Part shown: positions 2,920 through 14,923 of the stretch, piece after piece
How the letters are laid out: each line of letters begins with the position of its first letter
Numbering within the stretch: the first letter of the stretch is position 1
Virus record (IMG/VR): IMGVR_UViG_3300007363_000132
Span: 1-20,653 of that record
Origin: a virus
Strand: one strand, 5' to 3'
DNA: 20,653 nucleotides
Program-made: the position numbers and the translations under genes
Notes under the pieces: model-generated
The model's database searches: none
What the model saw: the letters and a program-made list of their open reading frames with translations, nothing else
What the model was told of the DNA's origin: nothing

Positions 2920-4288
2920 GTACACCAACAGCGCGTACATCGGCGCGGCGCACCACAGACAGATATGCGAGAAGCTGGAGGCTGTAGAGCGCGGCGAGAT
3001 CGACCGGCTCATGATCTTCATGCCACCGAGGCATGGTAAATCGGAACTGGCATCGAGGCGCTTCCCGGCGTGGTATCTCGGGCGCAACCCTGAGAAGTCG
3101 ATCATCGCGGCGAGCTACAACAGCGACCTTGCCAGTGACTTTGGGCGCACCGTCCGCAACATCGTCAAAACGCCTGAGTTCGTGAACCTGTTCGGCCCGA
3201 CGCTGGCGGATGACAGCCGTGCAGCCGATAGGTGGAACACGGTACAGGGCGGGGCTTATGTGGCTGCCGGTGTGGGGACGGCCATTACCGGGCGTGGTGC
3301 CAACGTCCTGCTGATTGACGACCCGCTAAAGGACCGCCAGGAAGCGGACAGCGAGACGATCCGCAAGTCGGTGTGGGACTGGTACACATCGACGGCCTAC
3401 ACCCGGTTGATGCCGGGTGGTGCTGTGGTGCTGATCCAGACACGCTGGCATGAGGACGATCTGGCGGGCCGGCTGCTAGAGGAGATGCGGCGCGGCGGCG
3501 ACAAGTGGGAAGTGCTGGAGCTTAAGGCTCTGGATGATGGCAAGGCGCTATGGCCTGAGTGGTATCCGGTCGAGGCTTTGGAGAGAATACGGGCGGCGAT
3601 TGGTCCGCGTGACTGGTCGGCGCTCTATCAACAGAATCCGGTGCCGGACGAGGGCACGTTCTTTCTCAAGGACTGGATACGGTATTACGACGAGCCACCT
3701 CCGGGCCTGAGAGTGTACGGAGCCAGCGACTACGCGGTGACCGAGGGTGGCGGGGACTACACTGTCCATCTGGTTGCGGGCGTGAACGAGCACGACGACC
3801 TCTACATCCTCGACCGTTGGCGGGCACAGACAACGCCTGATGTCTGGGTGGAGGCGTTTATCGGGCTGCTGAGACAATGGCAGCCGGTCGAGTGGGCCGA
3901 GGAGAACGGCCAGATACTCAAGGCTGTGGGCTCGCTGATCGACAGGCGGCAGATCGAGGAAAAAGCGTGGTGCTTCCGCAAGGCGTTTGCGAGCAGCGCC
4001 GACAAGCCGACCAGGGCGCAGGCCATCAGGGGCCGAATGGCGGCAGGCAAGGTCTATCTGCCCCGCAACGCCCCTTGGGTCGATGAGTTCATTCGGGAAC
4101 TGTTGAGCTTCCCCGCCGGCAAGAACGACGACCAAGTGGACACGCTCAGCCTGCTGGGGCGGATGCTGGGCGAGATGGTGGCGGCAGTCAAACCAAGGCC
4201 CGAGATAGACGAACCGCTTATCAAAGCGCCGACGTACGGCGACATCATGGCGCGGCATCTGGCCGCACGTAAGAGGATGAGAGCATGA
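2819..4288 (+). CDS. terL: Terminase large subunit (ATPase-nuclease)
   Basis: The packaging motor is recognised from a Walker A-type motif PPRHGKS (residues about 69-75), followed by 'IIAASYNSDLASDFGRTVRNIV', a Walker B segment VLLIDDP (from about 163) and a coupling segment 'VVLIQTRWHEDDLAG'. The second half contains 'GASDYAVTEGGGDYTVHLV', where the Asp residues fit the start of the RNase H-like nuclease fold, and a later NDDQVDTLS segment that supplies further acidic residues. In this family the enzyme uses ATP to push DNA into the procapsid through the portal and cuts the concatemer. The frame is open from TTG 2783, but GTG 2819 with AGAGG just upstream gives a normal 489-aa length and is preferred. 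The end overlaps the next gene by four bases. Confidence 0.93.
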   Translation: MSYQTRSLQPSPQEAAQELLTRRIARKSLLAFTEYTNSAYIGAAHHRQICEKLEAVERGEIDRLMIFMPPRHGKSELASRRFPAWYLGRNPEKSIIAASYNSDLASDFGRTVRNIVKTPEFVNLFGPTLADDSRAADRWNTVQGGAYVAAGVGTAITGRGANVLLIDDPLKDRQEADSETIRKSVWDWYTSTAYTRLMPGGAVVLIQTRWHEDDLAGRLLEEMRRGGDKWEVLELKALDDGKALWPEWYPVEALERIRAAIGPRDWSALYQQNPVPDEGTFFLKDWIRYYDEPPPGLRVYGASDYAVTEGGGDYTVHLVAGVNEHDDLYILDRWRAQTTPDVWVEAFIGLLRQWQPVEWAEENGQILKAVGSLIDRRQIEEKAWCFRKAFASSADKPTRAQAIRGRMAAGKVYLPRNAPWVDEFIRELLSFPAGKNDDQVDTLSLLGRMLGEMVAAVKPRPEIDEPLIKAPTYGDIMARHLAARKRMRA

Positions 4289-7290: not shown

Positions 7291-8298
7291 ATGAGCATCG
7301 AGAACGACACTCCCGAGGAGGGAGCCAGTCTGGCCGATACCCTGCGTGCGGAACTTTCGAAGGCCCCGCCGCCAGACATACCGGATGAAGTCATCGAGGA
7401 CGGCCCCGCCCGCGACGAGGTGGGCCGCTTCGCACCGAAACAGGGCGAGCAGCCACAGGCGCAGCCCGAACCGATCCCCGACCAGCCGCAGGGCATCCAG
7501 CCCCCAGCGTCATGGTCAAAGGAAGACCGCGCAGTTTTCGCCACTCTCCCACCGAACGTGCAGGAGCTTCTCTCCCGCCGTGAAAGAGAGATGACGGCGG
7601 ACTACACGCGGAAAACACAGGAAATAGCGGACATCCGCCGTTTCTCGGACGAAATACGTCCAGTCTTTGAGAAGAACCAGCAGTTGATCGCCCATGCGGG
7701 CGCATCCCCGGCGCAGGTCGTTGACCAGTTGCTCGGGATGTACGGCTACTCGCAGCGCGATCCTGTCGGCTACCTCAAATGGGCGGCTCAGTCCCTGAAC
7801 GTGGACCTCGCGCAACTCACACAGCCGGCCGACGAGTACGTTGACCCGGCATTTAACGAGCTTCGCAACCAGTTACAGCCTCTGAGCCAACAGGTCCAGA
7901 GCGTGACCCAGTACATCCAGGAACAGCAGCGTTTACAGCAGGAGCAGGCTCTACAGCAGGTTCAATCGACCATCGAGACGTTCGCCTCGGAGAAGGACGC
8001 CAGCGGCCAGCCGCTTCGGCCCTACTTCGAGCAGGTCAAGGTGGCGATGGGCAGGCTGTTGCAGCCCGACGCCAACGGCAACGCCCTGGCGACCGACTTG
8101 CAGGACGCTTACGACAAGGCCACATGGGCAGACCCTGCCATTCGCGCCGAACTTCAGAAGCCGAAACCGGCCAATGACGTGGTGAAGGCGGCGAAACAGG
8201 TCGCGGCCATGAATGTGCGGTCAAGTGGCATGGCCTCCTCTGAGGCTTCTGGATCGCTGCGGGACACGCTGCGGGACGAGATGGCGCGGATGCGCTGA
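7291..8298 (+). CDS. Scaffolding-like protein of head assembly
   Basis: ATG 7291 has AAGGA just upstream, overlapping the end of the previous gene. The 335-aa product directly precedes the major capsid gene, the usual scaffold position. It has an acidic, Pro/Gln-rich and probably disordered N-terminus (about residues 1-75, with PPPDIPDEVIEDGP and VGRFAPK), a helical middle with 'RREREMTADYTRKTQEIADIRRFSDEIRPVFEKN' elements, a Gln-rich coiled coil around residues 190-225 (TQYIQEQQRLQQEQALQQ), and a basic helical C-terminus ending SLRDTLRDEMARMR. Scaffold proteins guide capsid assembly and leave before DNA fills the head; the C-terminal basic helix commonly binds the coat protein. No protease motif is visible, so removal may not involve a fused protease. 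Confidence 0.8.
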   Translation: MSIENDTPEEGASLADTLRAELSKAPPPDIPDEVIEDGPARDEVGRFAPKQGEQPQAQPEPIPDQPQGIQPPASWSKEDRAVFATLPPNVQELLSRREREMTADYTRKTQEIADIRRFSDEIRPVFEKNQQLIAHAGASPAQVVDQLLGMYGYSQRDPVGYLKWAAQSLNVDLAQLTQPADEYVDPAFNELRNQLQPLSQQVQSVTQYIQEQQRLQQEQALQQVQSTIETFASEKDASGQPLRPYFEQVKVAMGRLLQPDANGNALATDLQDAYDKATWADPAIRAELQKPKPANDVVKAAKQVAAMNVRSSGMASSEASGSLRDTLRDEMARMR

Positions 8299-8306
8299 TT
8301 GCGGCG

Positions 8307-8326
8307 CTCACCACCCCCTTGGTGAG
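8307..8326 (+). promoter_or_regulatory. Hairpin covering the capsid gene ribosome binding site
   Basis: CTCACCA (8307-8313) and TGGTGAG (8320-8326) form a perfect 7-bp stem with a six-base loop CCCCCT. The right arm contains the GGTGAGG ribosome binding site of the capsid gene (start 8335). Folding would hide the site and could limit capsid translation or tie it to upstream translation through the scaffold gene, which ends nearby at 8298. There is no T-run, so it is not a normal intrinsic terminator. Confidence 0.55.
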
Positions 8327-8334
8327 GTATTGCA

Positions 8335-8524
8335 ATGGCATCCCCCAATTCGACCTTTGACGAAATCGTCACAACCACCCTGCGGAAGCACCGCCGGGAA
8401 ATCGCCGACAACGTTTCCGAGAATAACGCCCTCTACAAGCGGCTGACCAAGCGCGGCAAGGTCAAGCTCGACGACGGCGGCTCGGAAATCGCCATCCCGC
8501 TCGACTACGCTGAGAATAGCACCT
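8335..8524 (+). CDS. Major capsid protein, exon 1 (63 codons plus first base of codon 64)
   Basis: This is the N-terminal exon of the HK97-fold major capsid protein, starting at ATG 8335 with a GAGG site. It encodes 63 residues from MASPNSTFDEIVTTTLRKH to LDYAENST and the first T of a split Tyr codon. Without splicing the frame runs into the intron and stops at TAG 8542-8544, giving a 69-aa fragment. Joining base 8524 to 9280 gives codons acc-tat-caa-cgc-tat and the peptide ENSTYQRYSGLDVLN, a continuous match to the style of this capsid family (YAEN.TYQRYSG). The spliced gene totals 963 nt and encodes 320 aa, a normal length. The exon's last base is U, as required for group I splicing. The protein forms the icosahedral shell. 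Confidence 0.9.
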
Positions 8525-8540
8525 TGACCCTGATTGCCGC

Positions 8541-9026
8541 TTAGGCGGCGTTGGGAATAGGGTCACCTCCGTTGGGAACGTCCCAGCGGGTCTGTTTCAA
8601 CGATTTAAGCTGATCAACGATGCTCTGCCGGAACGCATACAGTTCCGGGCGCATGTGTGGCCGATACTTGAAATCGGAAGCATGCGCGGTGATGTGCTTT
8701 TGCAGGACAATAGCCAAGTCGGCCTCCTCGCCCTTGACTTTCAGGTGCGGCCTTACAGCCTCCAGAAAGCCCACGGCGGGCCGGGATGATAACCGCCACT
8801 GATAGCAAATCTTATGATTTGGGTTTCGCTTGGCGGCGCTGTCGTTTCGGTGGAGAAGTCCGCCAAACTGGTCTTGCATGGCCTTCATAAGCGGGTAATG
8901 GGACATGCCGACGCCAACAAACAGTTGGTATCGGATGTATTCCCTGCCTGGCACAGCCCAGACATTGACCGTGATCCAGCCTTCACCGTCAAAAAGGCCC
9001 GCAACGTATCGGATATCCAAGTCCAT
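8541..9026 (-). CDS. LAGLIDADG homing endonuclease, antisense inside the intron
   Basis: The 161-aa product has a single LAGLIDADG-type motif at its N-terminus (YVAGLFDGEGWITV, motif from residue 8, with D13 and E15 as acidic residues). Single-motif enzymes act as homodimers and cut a long, nearly palindromic site, here presumably the intronless capsid gene, so that repair copies the intron. The rest fits the family: 'RYQLFVGVGMSHYPLMKAMQDQFGG', then 'CYQWRLSSRPAVGFLEAVRPHLKVKGEEADLAI' (given in part) and a helical end 'SIVDQLKSLKQTRW'. The start ATG 9026 is chosen because AGGA lies six bases upstream and the motif begins a few residues later; the open frame to 9197 is antisense of the ribozyme core. 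The stop lies only 16 bases from the 5' splice site. Expression requires a - strand transcript; no convincing promoter is seen. Confidence 0.92.
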   Translation of the reverse strand: MDLDIRYVAGLFDGEGWITVNVWAVPGREYIRYQLFVGVGMSHYPLMKAMQDQFGGLLHRNDSAAKRNPNHKICYQWRLSSRPAVGFLEAVRPHLKVKGEEADLAIVLQKHITAHASDFKYRPHMRPELYAFRQSIVDQLKSLKQTRWDVPNGGDPIPNAA

Positions 9027-9032
9027 TCGAGT

Positions 9033-9036
9033 TCCT
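9033..9036 (-). promoter_or_regulatory. Ribosome binding site of the endonuclease gene
   Basis: On the - strand AGGA precedes ATG 9026 with a spacing of six bases. This site decides the start in favour of the 161-aa protein over longer forms that would extend into the intron core. Confidence 0.7.
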
Positions 9037-9050
9037 AGCGGTTGTTGAGA

Positions 9051-9279
9051 AGGCGGCGAATTCGGAGAAAGCCCGATGCCCGGCCCGAAAGGGTGCGGAA
9101 GGGTAACCCCGAGCCAAGCAGGCAGTGTCCAAAACTGCCGGGCGTGTGTAACGAACATGTACCGCCCCCGAAAGGGAAGATATGTTCTGACCTCCATAGG
9201 AATATGGAGAAGGCGACAGAAATGATTGCCTCCTACTGTTGTCTAATAATACTGGGCAATTAGTAGAGTAACAACAGTG
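9051..9279 (+). ncRNA. Catalytic core of the group I intron (P3 to P9)
   Basis: Hand pairing gives the full core. P3 is GGCGG 9052-9056 with CCGCC 9162-9166. P4 is TTCGG 9061-9065 with CCGAG 9109-9113. P5 is GCCC 9071-9074 with GGGT 9101-9104, extended by a CCC-GAAA-GGG hairpin. P6 is 9114-9115 with 9141-9142, and P6a is GGCAGT 9121-9126 with ACTGCC 9134-9139. P7 is GAACAT 9153-9158 with ATGTTC 9182-9187, plus A9151-U9188 around a bulged C9152; G9153-C9187 is the expected guanosine-binding pair. P8 is CCC-GAAA-GGG 9167-9176, and J8/7 is AAGAT. P9 is CTCCAT 9192-9197 with ATGGAG 9204-9209. A last hairpin (9235-9242 with 9271-9278, inner 9243-9247 with 9259-9263) leads directly to the terminal G. 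Confidence 0.88.
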
Positions 9280-10052
9280 ATCAACGCTATTCAGGCCTCG
9301 ACGTTCTGAACATCGGCTCGTCCGAGGTTCTGTCGGCGGCTAAGTACGACTGGAAGCAGGCTGCCATCCACGTCGTCATCAGCGGACGGGAACTGCGCCA
9401 GAACAGCGGCTCGGACACCCGTATCATCAACCTGCTGGAAGCCCGCATCGAGAATGCGAAGCGCACGGCGGCGAACAACATGTCGGAAGACCTGTATTCG
9501 TCTGGCTCGCTGACCAATCAGGTGGGCGGCATCCAGCACATCATCCAGGACGCGGGCACCGGCACGGTCGGCGGCATCGTTTCCTCGACCTATACCTGGT
9601 GGAAAAACCAGTTCGAGGAATGTGCGAGCACCGTCAGCAAGTCCACCATCAAGAAAGAGATGATGGACCTGTGGCTCAAGACCTGCCGCGGCGCTGACAA
9701 GACGGACCTCATTGTGGGTTCGACCGAGCTTTTCACCCTCTACTGGGAAGCCCTGTCGGACCTCCAGCGCTTCGCATCGACCGATGAAGGCGACACGGGC
9801 TTTACCTCGCTGAAGTTCATGTCGGCGGATGTGGTCTATGACTCGCTGGCCTCCGGTATGCCGGCCACGCACATGTTCTTCATCAACACCGACTACATGC
9901 AGCTGGTGACCCACCGGGATGCGAACTGGACGGTGGTTGAGGACAAGGTGCCGCTCCAGCAGGACGCCATCGTGAAGCCGTTGTTGTGGATGGGCAACCT
10001 GACCTGCTCCAATCGGGCGCGTCAGGGTGTTCTCATCGACGCCGCCGGTTAA
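9280..10052 (+). CDS. Major capsid protein, exon 2
   Basis: This exon supplies the last two bases of Tyr64 and 256 further residues up to TAA 10050-10052. It begins QRYSGLDVLNIGSSEVLSAA and continues through 'KYDWKQAAIHVVISGRELRQNSG' and the segment NMSEDLYSSGSLTNQVGGIQ. The C-terminal region contains 'LWMGNLTCSNRARQGVLIDAAG'. The whole is typical of an HK97-fold coat protein of about 320 aa. An ATG at 9480 could suggest a shorter free-standing gene, but the open frame extends left to the intron end with strongly capsid-like sequence, so a separate gene is not credible. After splicing the exon forms the main part of the shell subunit. A strong GGAGG for the next gene follows the stop. Confidence 0.92.
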
Positions 10053-10064
10053 GGAGGAAAGACA

Positions 10065-10565
10065 ATGGCATATGTCATTACTTCTCTCGCGGCTGGTGCG
10101 GGTTCGCAGGCTATCGCGGACACCTCCACCACCCAGCGTCACCCGCTCGGCACCATCGTCACGGCTTACGACCCGACGTATGGCGCCGGAGAGTTCATCT
10201 ACCTGCTGGGCGTCGCTTCGACGGCGGTTGGCTCGTGGGTCACCTACAACGCTGACGACTTCAGCACCACCTTGCTGGTGGCGAACGCCATCGGCCCGGT
10301 GGCTGTCTCGATGTCGGCCAACGTGGCTAGCCAGTATGGCTGGTATCAGATCAGCGGCAAGGCGGTCGGCAAGGCCCTCACCGGCTACGTTGACAACGCC
10401 CTGGTCTGGGCGACCTCGACCGCTGGCTCGGTTGACGACGCCGTGGTGGATGGCGACATGGTGCATCTGGCGAAGGGCGCTTCGGCTCTCGATACCCCGT
10501 CTACTGGTTTCGCGGAGTTCGAAATCCACCGCCCGTATACCGACGACATCACCACCAACGACTAA
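10065..10565 (+). CDS. Capsid decoration-like protein, short paralogue (166 aa)
   Basis: ATG 10065 has a perfect GGAGG eight bases upstream, starting at the capsid stop, suggesting high expression. The all-beta product contains a block 'TQRHPLGTIVTAYDPTYGAGEFIYL', then 'STAVGSWVTY', 'SANVASQYGWYQISGKAVGKAL' and a final AEFEIHRPYT segment. The Gly-rich 'TYGAGEFIYL...GSWVTY' and 'YGWYQI.GKA' pattern is seen in phage head decoration or head-fibre-like proteins encoded after the coat gene. The next gene is a clear paralogue sharing this whole region. Such proteins usually sit on the outside of the capsid and stabilise it. There is no enzyme motif. The assignment rests on position and sequence style. 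Confidence 0.75.
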   Translation: MAYVITSLAAGAGSQAIADTSTTQRHPLGTIVTAYDPTYGAGEFIYLLGVASTAVGSWVTYNADDFSTTLLVANAIGPVAVSMSANVASQYGWYQISGKAVGKALTGYVDNALVWATSTAGSVDDAVVDGDMVHLAKGASALDTPSTGFAEFEIHRPYTDDITTND

Positions 10566-10593: not shown

Positions 10594-10613
10594 AACCTCT
10601 TCGGAGAAATTCA

Positions 10614-11444
10614 ATGGCCTATGTGATCCAGAATGCCGCGCTGGCTGGCGCGCAGCCTATCGCTGTTGCAGACACCACCCAGCGGCACACGCTGGGCACA
10701 GTGGTATCCGCCGTAGACCCCACCTATGGGGCGGGAGAGTTCATTTACCTTCAGGGCGCGGCGACCACCGCCGTTGGTTCCTGGGTGACCTATTACGAGG
10801 ACGACTGGACCACGGCTCTGCTGGCGGCTGACGCCGTGGGGCGCGTTGCGGTCGCCATGAGCGCCAACGTCGCATCCTCGTATGGATGGTATCAGATCAA
10901 GGGCAAGGCGGTCGGTAAGGCGCTGACCGGCTACGCCGACAACGCCGCCGTTTACGCGACCGCTACGGCTGGTTCCGTTGATGACGCGGTGGTTGCCGGC
11001 GATCTGGTCATGAACGCCCTAGGGGCCTCTGCCGTGGGCACGCCTTCCACGGGGCTGGCTGAGTTCGAGATTGACCGGCCATACACCCTCGATGGCAAGG
11101 TGACGAACGACTACATGGTGTCGCTGGATATCGCGGACGGCTCTGCGGAGGCTGTTTATTACCTTGTCTGCCCCCATGCGGGCACCATCAGCAAAATCTG
11201 GACGGTTATCGACGGTGCCGTCTCGACCGCCGATATCACGATCACGGCGGCGGTCGGTGTCACTGCCGTAACCAATGGCGTCGTGACCATCGCCACGGCG
11301 TCATCTGCCGCTGGTGATATCGACAGCGCCACCCCGACGGCTGCCAACACGGTGACGGCAGGGCAGGCGGTAAACTTCACGGTAACGGGCGGTGGCGCAG
11401 GCGGCAGCCCGCGCATTCATCTGGTCATGGTGGTGAGCCGCTGA
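10614..11444 (+). CDS. Capsid decoration-like protein, long paralogue with extra C-terminal domain (276 aa)
   Basis: The first about 165 residues are a clear duplicate of the preceding gene: TTQRHTLGTVVSAVDPTYG, GSWVTYYEDD, SANVASSYGWYQIKGKAVG and AEFEIDRPYT all align in the same order. The extra about 110 residues ('DYMVSLDIADGSAEAVYYLVCPHAGTISKIWTVIDGAVSTADITI' in part, then TAVTNG and NFTVTGGGAGG) form an all-beta, Gly/Thr/Ala-rich domain. This 'AGTISKIWTVIDGAVSTAD' type of domain also occurs in other phage virion proteins. Both copies probably decorate the head, the longer one projecting an additional domain. ATG 10614 follows CGGAGAAATTCA. Its stop overlaps the next start (TGATG). Confidence 0.75.
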   Translation: MAYVIQNAALAGAQPIAVADTTQRHTLGTVVSAVDPTYGAGEFIYLQGAATTAVGSWVTYYEDDWTTALLAADAVGRVAVAMSANVASSYGWYQIKGKAVGKALTGYADNAAVYATATAGSVDDAVVAGDLVMNALGASAVGTPSTGLAEFEIDRPYTLDGKVTNDYMVSLDIADGSAEAVYYLVCPHAGTISKIWTVIDGAVSTADITITAAVGVTAVTNGVVTIATASSAAGDIDSATPTAANTVTAGQAVNFTVTGGGAGGSPRIHLVMVVSR

Positions 11445-12931: not shown

Positions 12932-14514
12932 TGTTGCGGGTGCCTGCCGGTGGAGCGCAGCGGCGGGCCAGGACGGGTGTTTTCCAATTGCCCGCGCCTG
13001 TTCTGGGTTTGAACGCCCGCGACAACCTGATGGCGATGGACCCGCGCTATGCGGTGGCGATGGAAGACATGTTCCCCGAGGAAAGCTACATCCGCAGGCG
13101 GGCGGCGGCGGACAGCTTCGCGGGTGGTGCGACGGGAAATTTCCATTCGCTTTTCGAGTACGCCAAGGGCAGCACGTCGGGCAGTTTGGTAGGGTTCACC
13201 ACATCGGGCCGGATGTATGCGGGAATTACATCAGGTTCTCTCCCTGCGGCCACCTCGACCACGATGGGCACGGCGGAAGCAACGGCGGTCAACGTCAATT
13301 CTCTTCTGGTGGTCGCGTTCGACAACAACACCAAGGTTCCGCAGCAATGGGATGGAACCACCCTCTCGAACGTGACCATCACGAACGGGCCTTCGGGCGG
13401 CAATGCGTTTCTTGAGCATATCTCGCTACACAAGAACCGGACCTATTATTGCGAGCGCAACAGCCTGAAGTTCTGGTTTACCGCTACATCGGCCATAGGC
13501 GGCGACCTGACGGGCAAGTCGTTCGATCTGGTCTACATCTGCAAGAAGGGCGGTTACCTGCAATGCACGTCCACCTGGACCGTGGATGGCGGTAACGGGG
13601 TCGATGACCTGTTCGTCGCCGTCACTTCCGAAGGTGAGGTGGTGGTTTACCAGGGTTCCGATCCCTCGGATGCCACCGCGTGGTCTTTGGTGGGTGTCTA
13701 TGAAATCCCCAAGCCGATTGGCCGCAGATGCACGGTGAAGTTCGGCGGTGATCTGCTGATTATCACCGAGGTCGGCATTGTCTCGATGGCGGGGCTGTTT
13801 GCCGAGGGCGGGATTTTCCGGGGCCGGGCGGATTTCTCCAGCGTCATCGGCCCTGCGTGGAGGTCTCTGGTCAACCTCAACACCAAAACCTATCCGGGCT
13901 GGTTCGGGGTTCACTTTCCGGCAATGCGGATGCTGGTGTTCAACGTCCCCGACACCAACAACAGTTACACCGGCAAGCAGTTCATCATGAACACGGCGAC
14001 CGGGGCGTGGTGCCGGTGGAGCGTGAGGATGGGCTGCGCTGCCATATGGCAGTCGCGGATGATTATCGGATACACGACCTCCACCTATGAACTCGAGGTC
14101 AATTCGGCTGTCGCCAGCCCTCCCGGCAAGGATGATTACGCCTCGAGCACAGCTTTGACGGCCTATTTCAAACAGGCTTACAGCACCCTTGGAGTTCCGG
14201 GCCGAAAGAAACTGATCCGCCGCATCATCCCGAGAATGGGCGATGGCGACATCAGCGTGAATTATCACGTCGCGATGGCTGCTGATTATCAGGATGCGGC
14301 CTACTCGTCCTCAAATGTGCGTTCTGTGGAATGGTGGGGCGACAGGGCTAGTGCATCTGATTTCGGGACGGCCCTGCTGAACCCGCAGGAATCGCACGGC
14401 TCGCTTGGAACATCGTTCAGCCTGCGCTTTGCGCTGGACCAGGGCGGCACACAGATAGCCCAGCAAAATATCATCTACGCCGGGGCGGATGTTCATTACG
14501 AAGTCGGGTTTTGA
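12931..14514 (+). CDS. Tail hub / DNA-stabilisation-like virion protein, 527 aa
   Basis: ATG 12931 overlaps the previous stop with GAGGT upstream. The 527-aa product starts with a short basic segment and 'PAPVLGLNARDNLMAMDPRYAVAMEDMFPEESYIRRR', a signature shared by a family of podovirus tail proteins. The rest is repeated beta structure with Gly-, Thr- and Trp-rich turns ('GNFHSLFEYAKG', 'LVVAFDNNTKVPQQWDGTTLSN', 'ISLHKNRTYYCERNSLKFWF', 'GEVVVYQGSDPSDATAWSLVGVYEIPKPIGRRC' in pieces), consistent with a beta-propeller, as in the P22 gp10 hub. It probably forms the tail-tube extension below the adaptor that holds packaged DNA. There is no hydrolase motif. Its last 26 bases overlap the acetyltransferase gene. 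Confidence 0.75.
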   Translation: MLRVPAGGAQRRARTGVFQLPAPVLGLNARDNLMAMDPRYAVAMEDMFPEESYIRRRAAADSFAGGATGNFHSLFEYAKGSTSGSLVGFTTSGRMYAGITSGSLPAATSTTMGTAEATAVNVNSLLVVAFDNNTKVPQQWDGTTLSNVTITNGPSGGNAFLEHISLHKNRTYYCERNSLKFWFTATSAIGGDLTGKSFDLVYICKKGGYLQCTSTWTVDGGNGVDDLFVAVTSEGEVVVYQGSDPSDATAWSLVGVYEIPKPIGRRCTVKFGGDLLIITEVGIVSMAGLFAEGGIFRGRADFSSVIGPAWRSLVNLNTKTYPGWFGVHFPAMRMLVFNVPDTNNSYTGKQFIMNTATGAWCRWSVRMGCAAIWQSRMIIGYTTSTYELEVNSAVASPPGKDDYASSTALTAYFKQAYSTLGVPGRKKLIRRIIPRMGDGDISVNYHVAMAADYQDAAYSSSNVRSVEWWGDRASASDFGTALLNPQESHGSLGTSFSLRFALDQGGTQIAQQNIIYAGADVHYEVGF

Positions 14515-14923
14515 GTTCGTATTTGACCGCTCGGTGGCGGATTGGGTTTCGGAACGGCTGCCGGAGCCGTGCGAGTTCGGGGACTGCGCCGCCATTGGTT
14601 TGATGGACGGCAAACCCATAGCCGGGGTGGTTTACACCAACTGGCTCATTGGCCCCTCGGGGCCGCACTCAATAGAGATGCACATAGCCGCTGAAGGAAA
14701 GCGGTGGGCGCACCGGAGGACACTCAGGGTGTTCTTTGGCTTTGCGTTCGAAAACCTGAAGGCAAATCGGGTAACTGCGGTCACGCAGCCATACAACGCG
14801 GCCTGTATCGACATGTTGGAAAGACTTGGATTCCAGCATGAAGGGACATTGCGGCAGGGCTACCCCTCCGGGGTTGATGCTTTGCTGTTCGGAATGCTCA
14901 AGACGGAATGCAGGTGGTTGTAA
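14489..14923 (+). CDS. GNAT-family N-acetyltransferase
   Basis: The 144-aa product has the GNAT layout: an N-terminal strand-helix part (FEFVFDRSVADWVSERLP), a central 'AAIGLMDGKPIAGVVYTNW' strand pair, the acetyl-CoA-binding region around 'KRWAHRRTLRVFFGFAFENL' and a final 'NRVTAVTQPYNAACIDMLERLGFQHEGTLRQGY', characteristic of the RimJ/RimL-like branch. The N-A-A--MLERLGF-HEG ending is especially diagnostic. It would transfer acetyl from acetyl-CoA to an amine; the substrate is unknown and could be a phage structural protein, a host protein or a small molecule. The start ATG 14489 lies 26 bases inside the previous gene, and the end joins the next gene through TAATG. Acetyltransferases in tail operons are found in many phages, with roles not settled. 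Confidence 0.88.
   Translation: MFITKSGFEFVFDRSVADWVSERLPEPCEFGDCAAIGLMDGKPIAGVVYTNWLIGPSGPHSIEMHIAAEGKRWAHRRTLRVFFGFAFENLKANRVTAVTQPYNAACIDMLERLGFQHEGTLRQGYPSGVDALLFGMLKTECRWL

Follow-up and report, generated by a model that had tools for sequence, protein, structure and literature searches.

The major capsid protein gene carried by a viral DNA fragment is interrupted by a group I intron of 755 nt, located on the plus strand at positions 8525–9279 of a linear fragment from an IMG/VR record (20,653 nt; the whole analyzed stretch is hereafter called the window). Comparative sequence evidence was decisive in confirming this assignment. The element is very likely a mobile intron that splices itself out of the capsid transcript and carries an I-CreI-like homing endonuclease. 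The group I interpretation made in a first-pass annotation of this DNA was upheld, and it was incomplete in that the antisense endonuclease gene, the sister introns at two capsid sites, and the precedent of mycobacteriophage LittleE had been missed.

Capsid gene and splice junction

The capsid gene consists of exon 1 at 8335–8524 (+), which contains residues 1–63 and the first base of codon 64, and exon 2 at 9280–10,052 (+), which extends through the stop codon. Both were delimited by the spliced ORF, the PHROG 9953 match, and comparison with intronless relatives. As the first-pass annotation had read it, exon 1 meets an early stop and exon 2 has no in-frame start yielding a complete capsid; the unspliced frame starts at ATG 8335 and ends at a TAG (8542–8544), giving a 69-aa ORF. 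Joining 8524 to 9280 restored a single 320-aa ORF through the proposed junction peptide ENSTYQRYSG, which is found with identical letters in several intronless relatives (e.g., L002, L003, L004, and L006). The spliced protein matched PHROG 9953 (“major head protein”) over residues 4–317 (E = 3.2e-93), a full-length match that places it among the SU10/Mx8-like major capsid proteins, and was 41–49% identical to the head proteins of Myxococcus phage Mx8 (41%), a Bradyrhizobium phage, and a spring-water phage. Homologous capsids do not contain the insert as protein; they are without it altogether.

The junction was set from intronless relatives, and the intron coordinates are exact because only the cut T8524/T8525 and G9279/A9280 gives the junction tyrosine codon. 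The last base of the 5′ exon is U (U8524) and the last base of the intron is G (G9279), as had been noted from the letters alone. In the first sample of relatives, the capsid gene was uninterrupted in 37 of 37 viral contigs, a count that reflects a sampling effect of the close-relative search patterns; the idea drawn from it that no relative carries the intron was overturned by the sister introns found later.

It follows from the broken frame that capsid output would depend on splicing. That the insert is instead an intein-like or translationally bypassed sequence, without RNA splicing, we regard as having a negligible chance of being right. It does sit in a coding gene, and its removal restores the frame, but several stops close the capsid frame inside the insert, which excludes an intein, and the covarying group I core described below, together with the U and G termini, provides a full explanation. 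A length of 755 nt also greatly exceeds those known for translational bypass. Intein, translational bypass, and frameshift were considered and dropped, and so was an assembly chimera, since the same architecture recurs in independent samples.

Two further regions of the window were recorded. Two neighbouring ORFs, at 10,065–10,565 and 10,614–11,444, stand in tandem and are related to the same virion structural protein (PHROG 29386 in each case), suggesting from their sequences a possible gene duplication next to the capsid gene. Among the tail genes, an ORF at 14,489–14,923 resembles GNAT acetyltransferases (Pfam Acetyltransf_3, E = 1e-4, just below the cut-off).

Ribozyme core

A default Rfam scan of the window gave nothing that reached the gathering threshold, which for the group I family RF00028 is 50 bits, a limit set by the database and not a biological property. 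In E-value mode, RF00028 matched the intron at 25.8 bits, with E-values of 3.4e-4 in an all-family search and 1.4e-6 in a single-family search of the record; the group I match anticipated by the first-pass annotation is thus present and weak. As the default scan was empty, E-value mode and covariation within the intron family were both needed.

For the covariation analysis, the cores of 12 related introns were aligned on a structure drawn from the window sequence. In P3–P5 and P7–P9, 312 of 312 cells were paired across the family, a figure that is biased upward because one of the aligned sequences supplied the structure. Compensatory changes on both sides, which are not subject to this bias to the same degree, occurred in 12 of the 26 pairs and lay in P3, P5, P7, P8, and P9. 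The covariation score was 0.463 against 0.176 for shuffled alignments, with none of 500 shuffles reaching as high, and controls with slid partners all remained at or below 0.105. The RF00028 alignment and the covariation agree on a conserved P3–P8/P4–P6 core with a guanosine site in P7, which bears out the P3–P9 core with its P7 that had been drawn by eye.

P1 (8521–8563, +) was obtained from an unconstrained minimum-energy fold of 8500–8640. It is formed by A8521-U8563, C8522-G8562, C8523-G8561, U8524·G8560, U8525-A8559, and G8526·U8558, with an inner stem (8529–8534/8550–8555) and a hairpin (8536–8540/8545–8549), and its pairing within the exon is limited to 4 bp. The wobble U8524·G8560, in which the U at the 5′ exon end pairs with a guide G, falls exactly at the splice site, which was set independently by protein alignment; with the terminal G9279, these are the ends of a group I intron, and the same U and G ends occur in six other listed family members.

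The remaining helices lie on the same strand. P3 (9052–9166; 9052–9056 with 9162–9166) is pseudoknotted with P7, is paired in all 12 members, and has the strongest covariation, with GC, CG, UA, and AU pairs across the 12. The region 9062–9112 contains P4 (9062–9065/9109–9112) and P5 (9072–9074/9101–9103), both paired throughout the family alignment, and P5a (9084–9086/9091–9093, with a GAAA loop), placed by the family alignment. The P6a stem GGCAGU/ACUGCC (9121–9139) covaries in a five-member alignment. P7 (9153–9187; 9153–9156/9184–9187) was assigned by covariation and by the RF00028 alignment of J8/7 (AAGAUAU); it encloses the 3′ strand of P3 and P8 (9167–9169/9174–9176), and G9153-C9187 is likely its guanosine-binding pair. 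P9 (9192–9209) is a 7-bp hairpin with a GGAA loop in which five of the seven pairs covary. A possible P10, between 8548–8553 and 9282–9287, is a candidate read from the letters.

A model built from the intron family detected the experimentally spliced LittleE intron (L049), which is outside its training set, at 21.7 bits (E = 3e-4). An exact search of viral contigs for the window S/P9 motif, GAAGATATGTTCTGACCT, found none, and neither did a search of 84,980 bacterial genomes with the family core pattern. When the intron was compared with phages by blastn, the only match was a 37-nt stretch of S–P9 in two T7-like phages, pointing to an unannotated intron there. In Klebsiella phage RCIP0039 (L046:2374–3034), a group I core scoring 36.1 bits with RF00028 lies between two ORFs; in Acinetobacter phage vB_AbaA_LLY (L047), both ORFs flanking the core are annotated as DNA polymerase, the RF00028 score being from the Klebsiella phage only. 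In both phages, the core is an intron overlooked in the records.

We also weighed whether the insert has degenerated, does not splice, and so destroys the capsid gene, as might be seen in what is left of a defective prophage. The Rfam score is low, and a record that is a 20.6-kb linear fragment gives no basis for judging viability. Against this, every core helix pairs perfectly and covaries, both exons are open and conserved, the terminase, portal, and tail genes around the capsid gene are intact ORFs, the endonuclease frame is open, and the same-site relatives are intact, making such decay very improbable.

Endonuclease gene on the opposite strand

Between P1 and P3, a 161-aa ORF runs antisense to the capsid gene (8541–9026, −; read from 9026 to 8541), covers approximately two thirds of the intron, and has its stop codon within the P1 hairpin. 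It was identified as a homing endonuclease gene by PHROG 5046 (E = 4e-23), by profile, and by structure prediction. The protein bears a single LAGLIDADG motif, AGLFDGEGW; a profile of five member endonucleases matched I-MsoI (E = 7e-11) and I-CreI (E = 5e-6); and the AlphaFold model (pLDDT 80.5) had I-CreI as its top Foldseek match (E = 2.5e-8, TM about 0.7), with the α-β-β-α-β-β fold of the class. On the basis of the motif, the profile matches, and the predicted I-CreI-like structure, we assigned it to the LAGLIDADG class; its Pfam LAGLIDADG_1 score of 16.3 bits falls below the curated cut-off of 23.1, a database limit rather than a biological feature. PHROG 5046 is labelled HNH, a name that appears to be a misnomer, as the predicted model matches LAGLIDADG structures and not the ββα-metal fold.

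I-CreI and I-MsoI are encoded in introns of chloroplast rRNA genes. Like them, the window protein has a single motif, approximately 160 aa and, as predicted, the same fold, and a homodimer is expected, so that it presumably acts as one; its identity to I-CreI is about 20% and, unlike their genes, its gene lies antisense in a phage capsid intron. Endonuclease genes opposite the ribozyme strand are also found in the myxomycete nuclear rDNA group I introns Dir.S956-2 and Dsq.L2066 (PMC9548176), which differ from the window in having His-Cys endonucleases, a eukaryotic rDNA setting, separate polymerases, and spliceosomal introns.

An AGGA resembling a Shine-Dalgarno site (9033–9036, −) lies 6 nt before the endonuclease ATG, and similar purine-rich sites precede four of the five other antisense endonuclease genes. 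A promoter-like TTGTTA-17-TATTAT facing the gene (9246–9274, −) is the sole match in 8200–9700, where 0.6 matches are expected by chance; as a promoter for the antisense gene, it is a weak lead only. On either side of the joined site lies a 7-bp inverted repeat, GAATAGC...GCTATTC, whose centre is one base from the junction. Such a repeat would suit a homodimer target; this pseudo-palindrome is striking in the window and weak in most family members, so it is a suggestive hint that is not general in the family.

In the mechanism we propose, the RNA would fold within the late transcript as a P1–P9 ribozyme, an exogenous guanosine would dock at P7, and cleavage after U8524 in the P1 wobble would be followed by joining of 8524 to 9280 to give the full-length capsid. 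The 161-aa protein, an I-CreI-like homodimeric homing endonuclease, would be expressed from the opposite strand at another time or level. Most likely it would cut, close to the same junction, those capsid alleles of co-infecting phages that lack the intron; repair of the cut alleles would then copy the intron in and so spread it.

Sister introns, known systems, and significance

A first search with the endonuclease reached distant relatives only, and an alignment search then recovered true sisters: the endonucleases closest to that of the window are encoded inside introns that interrupt genes of this capsid family. L131 (789 nt), L132 (717 nt), and L162 (725 nt) have introns with antisense endonucleases at exactly the site seen in the window and in its phase. 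At a second capsid site (MYFL/NTDY), the endonuclease is antisense in L130 (765 nt) and L168 (759 nt) and sense in L171 (729 nt) and L170 (727 nt). The gene keeps a constant position 5′ of the core in both orientations, and its frame has stayed open in all eight introns, six with the antisense and two with the sense orientation. These eight endonucleases fall into one group, moderately supported (91/89). The sense pair is a clade of its own at 100/100, so one change of orientation is enough. RF00028 found no match, even at E = 10, in the introns of L130, L131, L132, and L162, and the clade is largely missed by Rfam. In another contig, L042, a sense LAGLIDADG ORF at 2944–3479 overlaps a group I core (RF00028, 41.8 bits) in a different gene that looks capsid-like by eye.

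The window core is 69–77% identical to the other cores, compared with 45–49% for the capsid proteins, and the capsids of L168 and L171 share 87% identity, but their cores at the same site share only 75% and their endonucleases are oppositely oriented. These contrasts suggest mobility, as judged from sequence identities; part of the excess of core over exon identity could be due to structural constraint on the core and not to transfer. An intron that splices around a non-working antisense ORF, and is thus immobile and inherited vertically or carried by neighbouring recombination, is unlikely, though it deserves weighing. No solid antisense promoter was seen, an endonuclease expressed from the non-coding strand of a late gene calls for an explanation, and the target pseudo-palindrome is visible in some members only. 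By contrast, the 161-aa frame is open with its motif intact and a predicted I-CreI fold, ribosome-binding-like sites are present, the protein family stays open in introns of both orientations, and the intron distribution does not match capsid relatedness. We therefore retain the mobile intron as the preferred reading.

Two relatives carry several introns in the capsid gene. In L165 (IMG/VR 3300037840_000553), pieces of the gene extend from 10,534 to about 13,660, and the family model found eight group I cores in order (E = 1e-4 to 3e-36), at 10,717, 11,440, 11,846, 12,599, 12,853, 13,072, 13,267, and 13,485, of which those at 11,440 and 12,599 are part of its training set. Independently, RF00028 found five cores in this contig, three of them above the curated cut-off. 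Taking out nine introns and a 51-nt insert gave one 342-aa capsid that shares 53% identity with the protein of the Bradyrhizobium phage; for each of the nine introns, the exon ends in U and the intron in G, and exons are as short as 22 nt. The L165 capsid gene thus appears from its sequence to be split by nine group I introns, where the junctions were chosen with the help of frame and homology, those of L165 and L170 were set with each other and with relatives, the ninth intron (11,005–11,350) has no detected core, and the ends of intron 4 are uncertain. The 51-nt insert (10,612–10,662), which lies between DNMS and RNNAALL, has in-frame stops, is too short for a ribozyme, and is absent from L170; it may be a bypass-like element or an intron remnant. 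The L170 capsid gene has at least five cores by the family model. Across L170:826–4292 we observed an intron in codon 6, a second intron, approximately 1 kb long, containing an HNH-like ORF, an intron with the sense LAGLIDADG gene, and two further cores downstream. The introns of L165 and L170 are mixed, some being of the window’s clade and others of another group I type.

Introns in phage structural genes are already known, and one of similar architecture occurs in another phage lineage, that of LittleE. There, an 819-bp insertion in the major capsid gene, with a bottom-strand LAGLIDADG-like ORF, is spliced, as RT-PCR and N-terminal sequencing of the protein established (Pope et al. 2013, PMC3706429). 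Like the window intron, it is about 0.8 kb long and group I-like, follows an exon that ends in U, itself ends in G, and carries a bottom-strand LAGLIDADG-like endonuclease; given this precedent, a capsid-gene intron is less exceptional than the first-pass annotation implied. LittleE differs in phage type and insertion context, and its endonuclease lies near the intron 3′ end, whereas that of the window is 5′ of the core. Similarity between the two endonucleases is confined to the region of the motif (42% over 19 residues), and the window core is much closer to those of L130, L131, and their kin than to the LittleE core. LittleE gp14 (L049:1565–2098) is labelled an HNH endonuclease, yet bears a LAGLIDADG motif. 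The T4 td, nrdB, and nrdD, SPO1, and Bastille-type introns share the group I ribozyme and homing logic, and lie mostly in DNA-metabolism genes with endonucleases that are mostly of other families, among them HNH and GIY-YIG (PMC2988022, PMC11878797). A literature search with little coverage of subscription journals or preprints found no paper on introns in Mx8-like phages.

We consider it probable that capsid genes of the Mx8-like lineage are an intron hot spot, invaded at two or more sites by a clade that Rfam largely misses and that carries I-CreI-like endonucleases at the same 5′ place in either orientation; the clade would accumulate together with other group I introns, up to nine in the L165 capsid gene. 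The literature surveyed here gives three introns per phage gene as its highest count (PMC11878797), so the nine in L165, if true, would be well above that number. As the clade lies below the Rfam threshold, standard annotation would describe a disrupted capsid gene and an isolated ORF. Capsid protein is needed late and in hundreds of copies; therefore, splicing would have to be nearly fully efficient or be itself a control point. The sister introns constitute a natural experiment, with the same gene and site, sense or antisense endonucleases, and one to nine introns. It makes two questions testable: by what route an endonuclease gene facing a late transcript comes to be expressed, and what number of group I introns one essential phage gene tolerates. 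More surprising than the intron itself is that a single capsid gene family has been invaded repeatedly, with several introns in some genes and with endonucleases that switch orientation.
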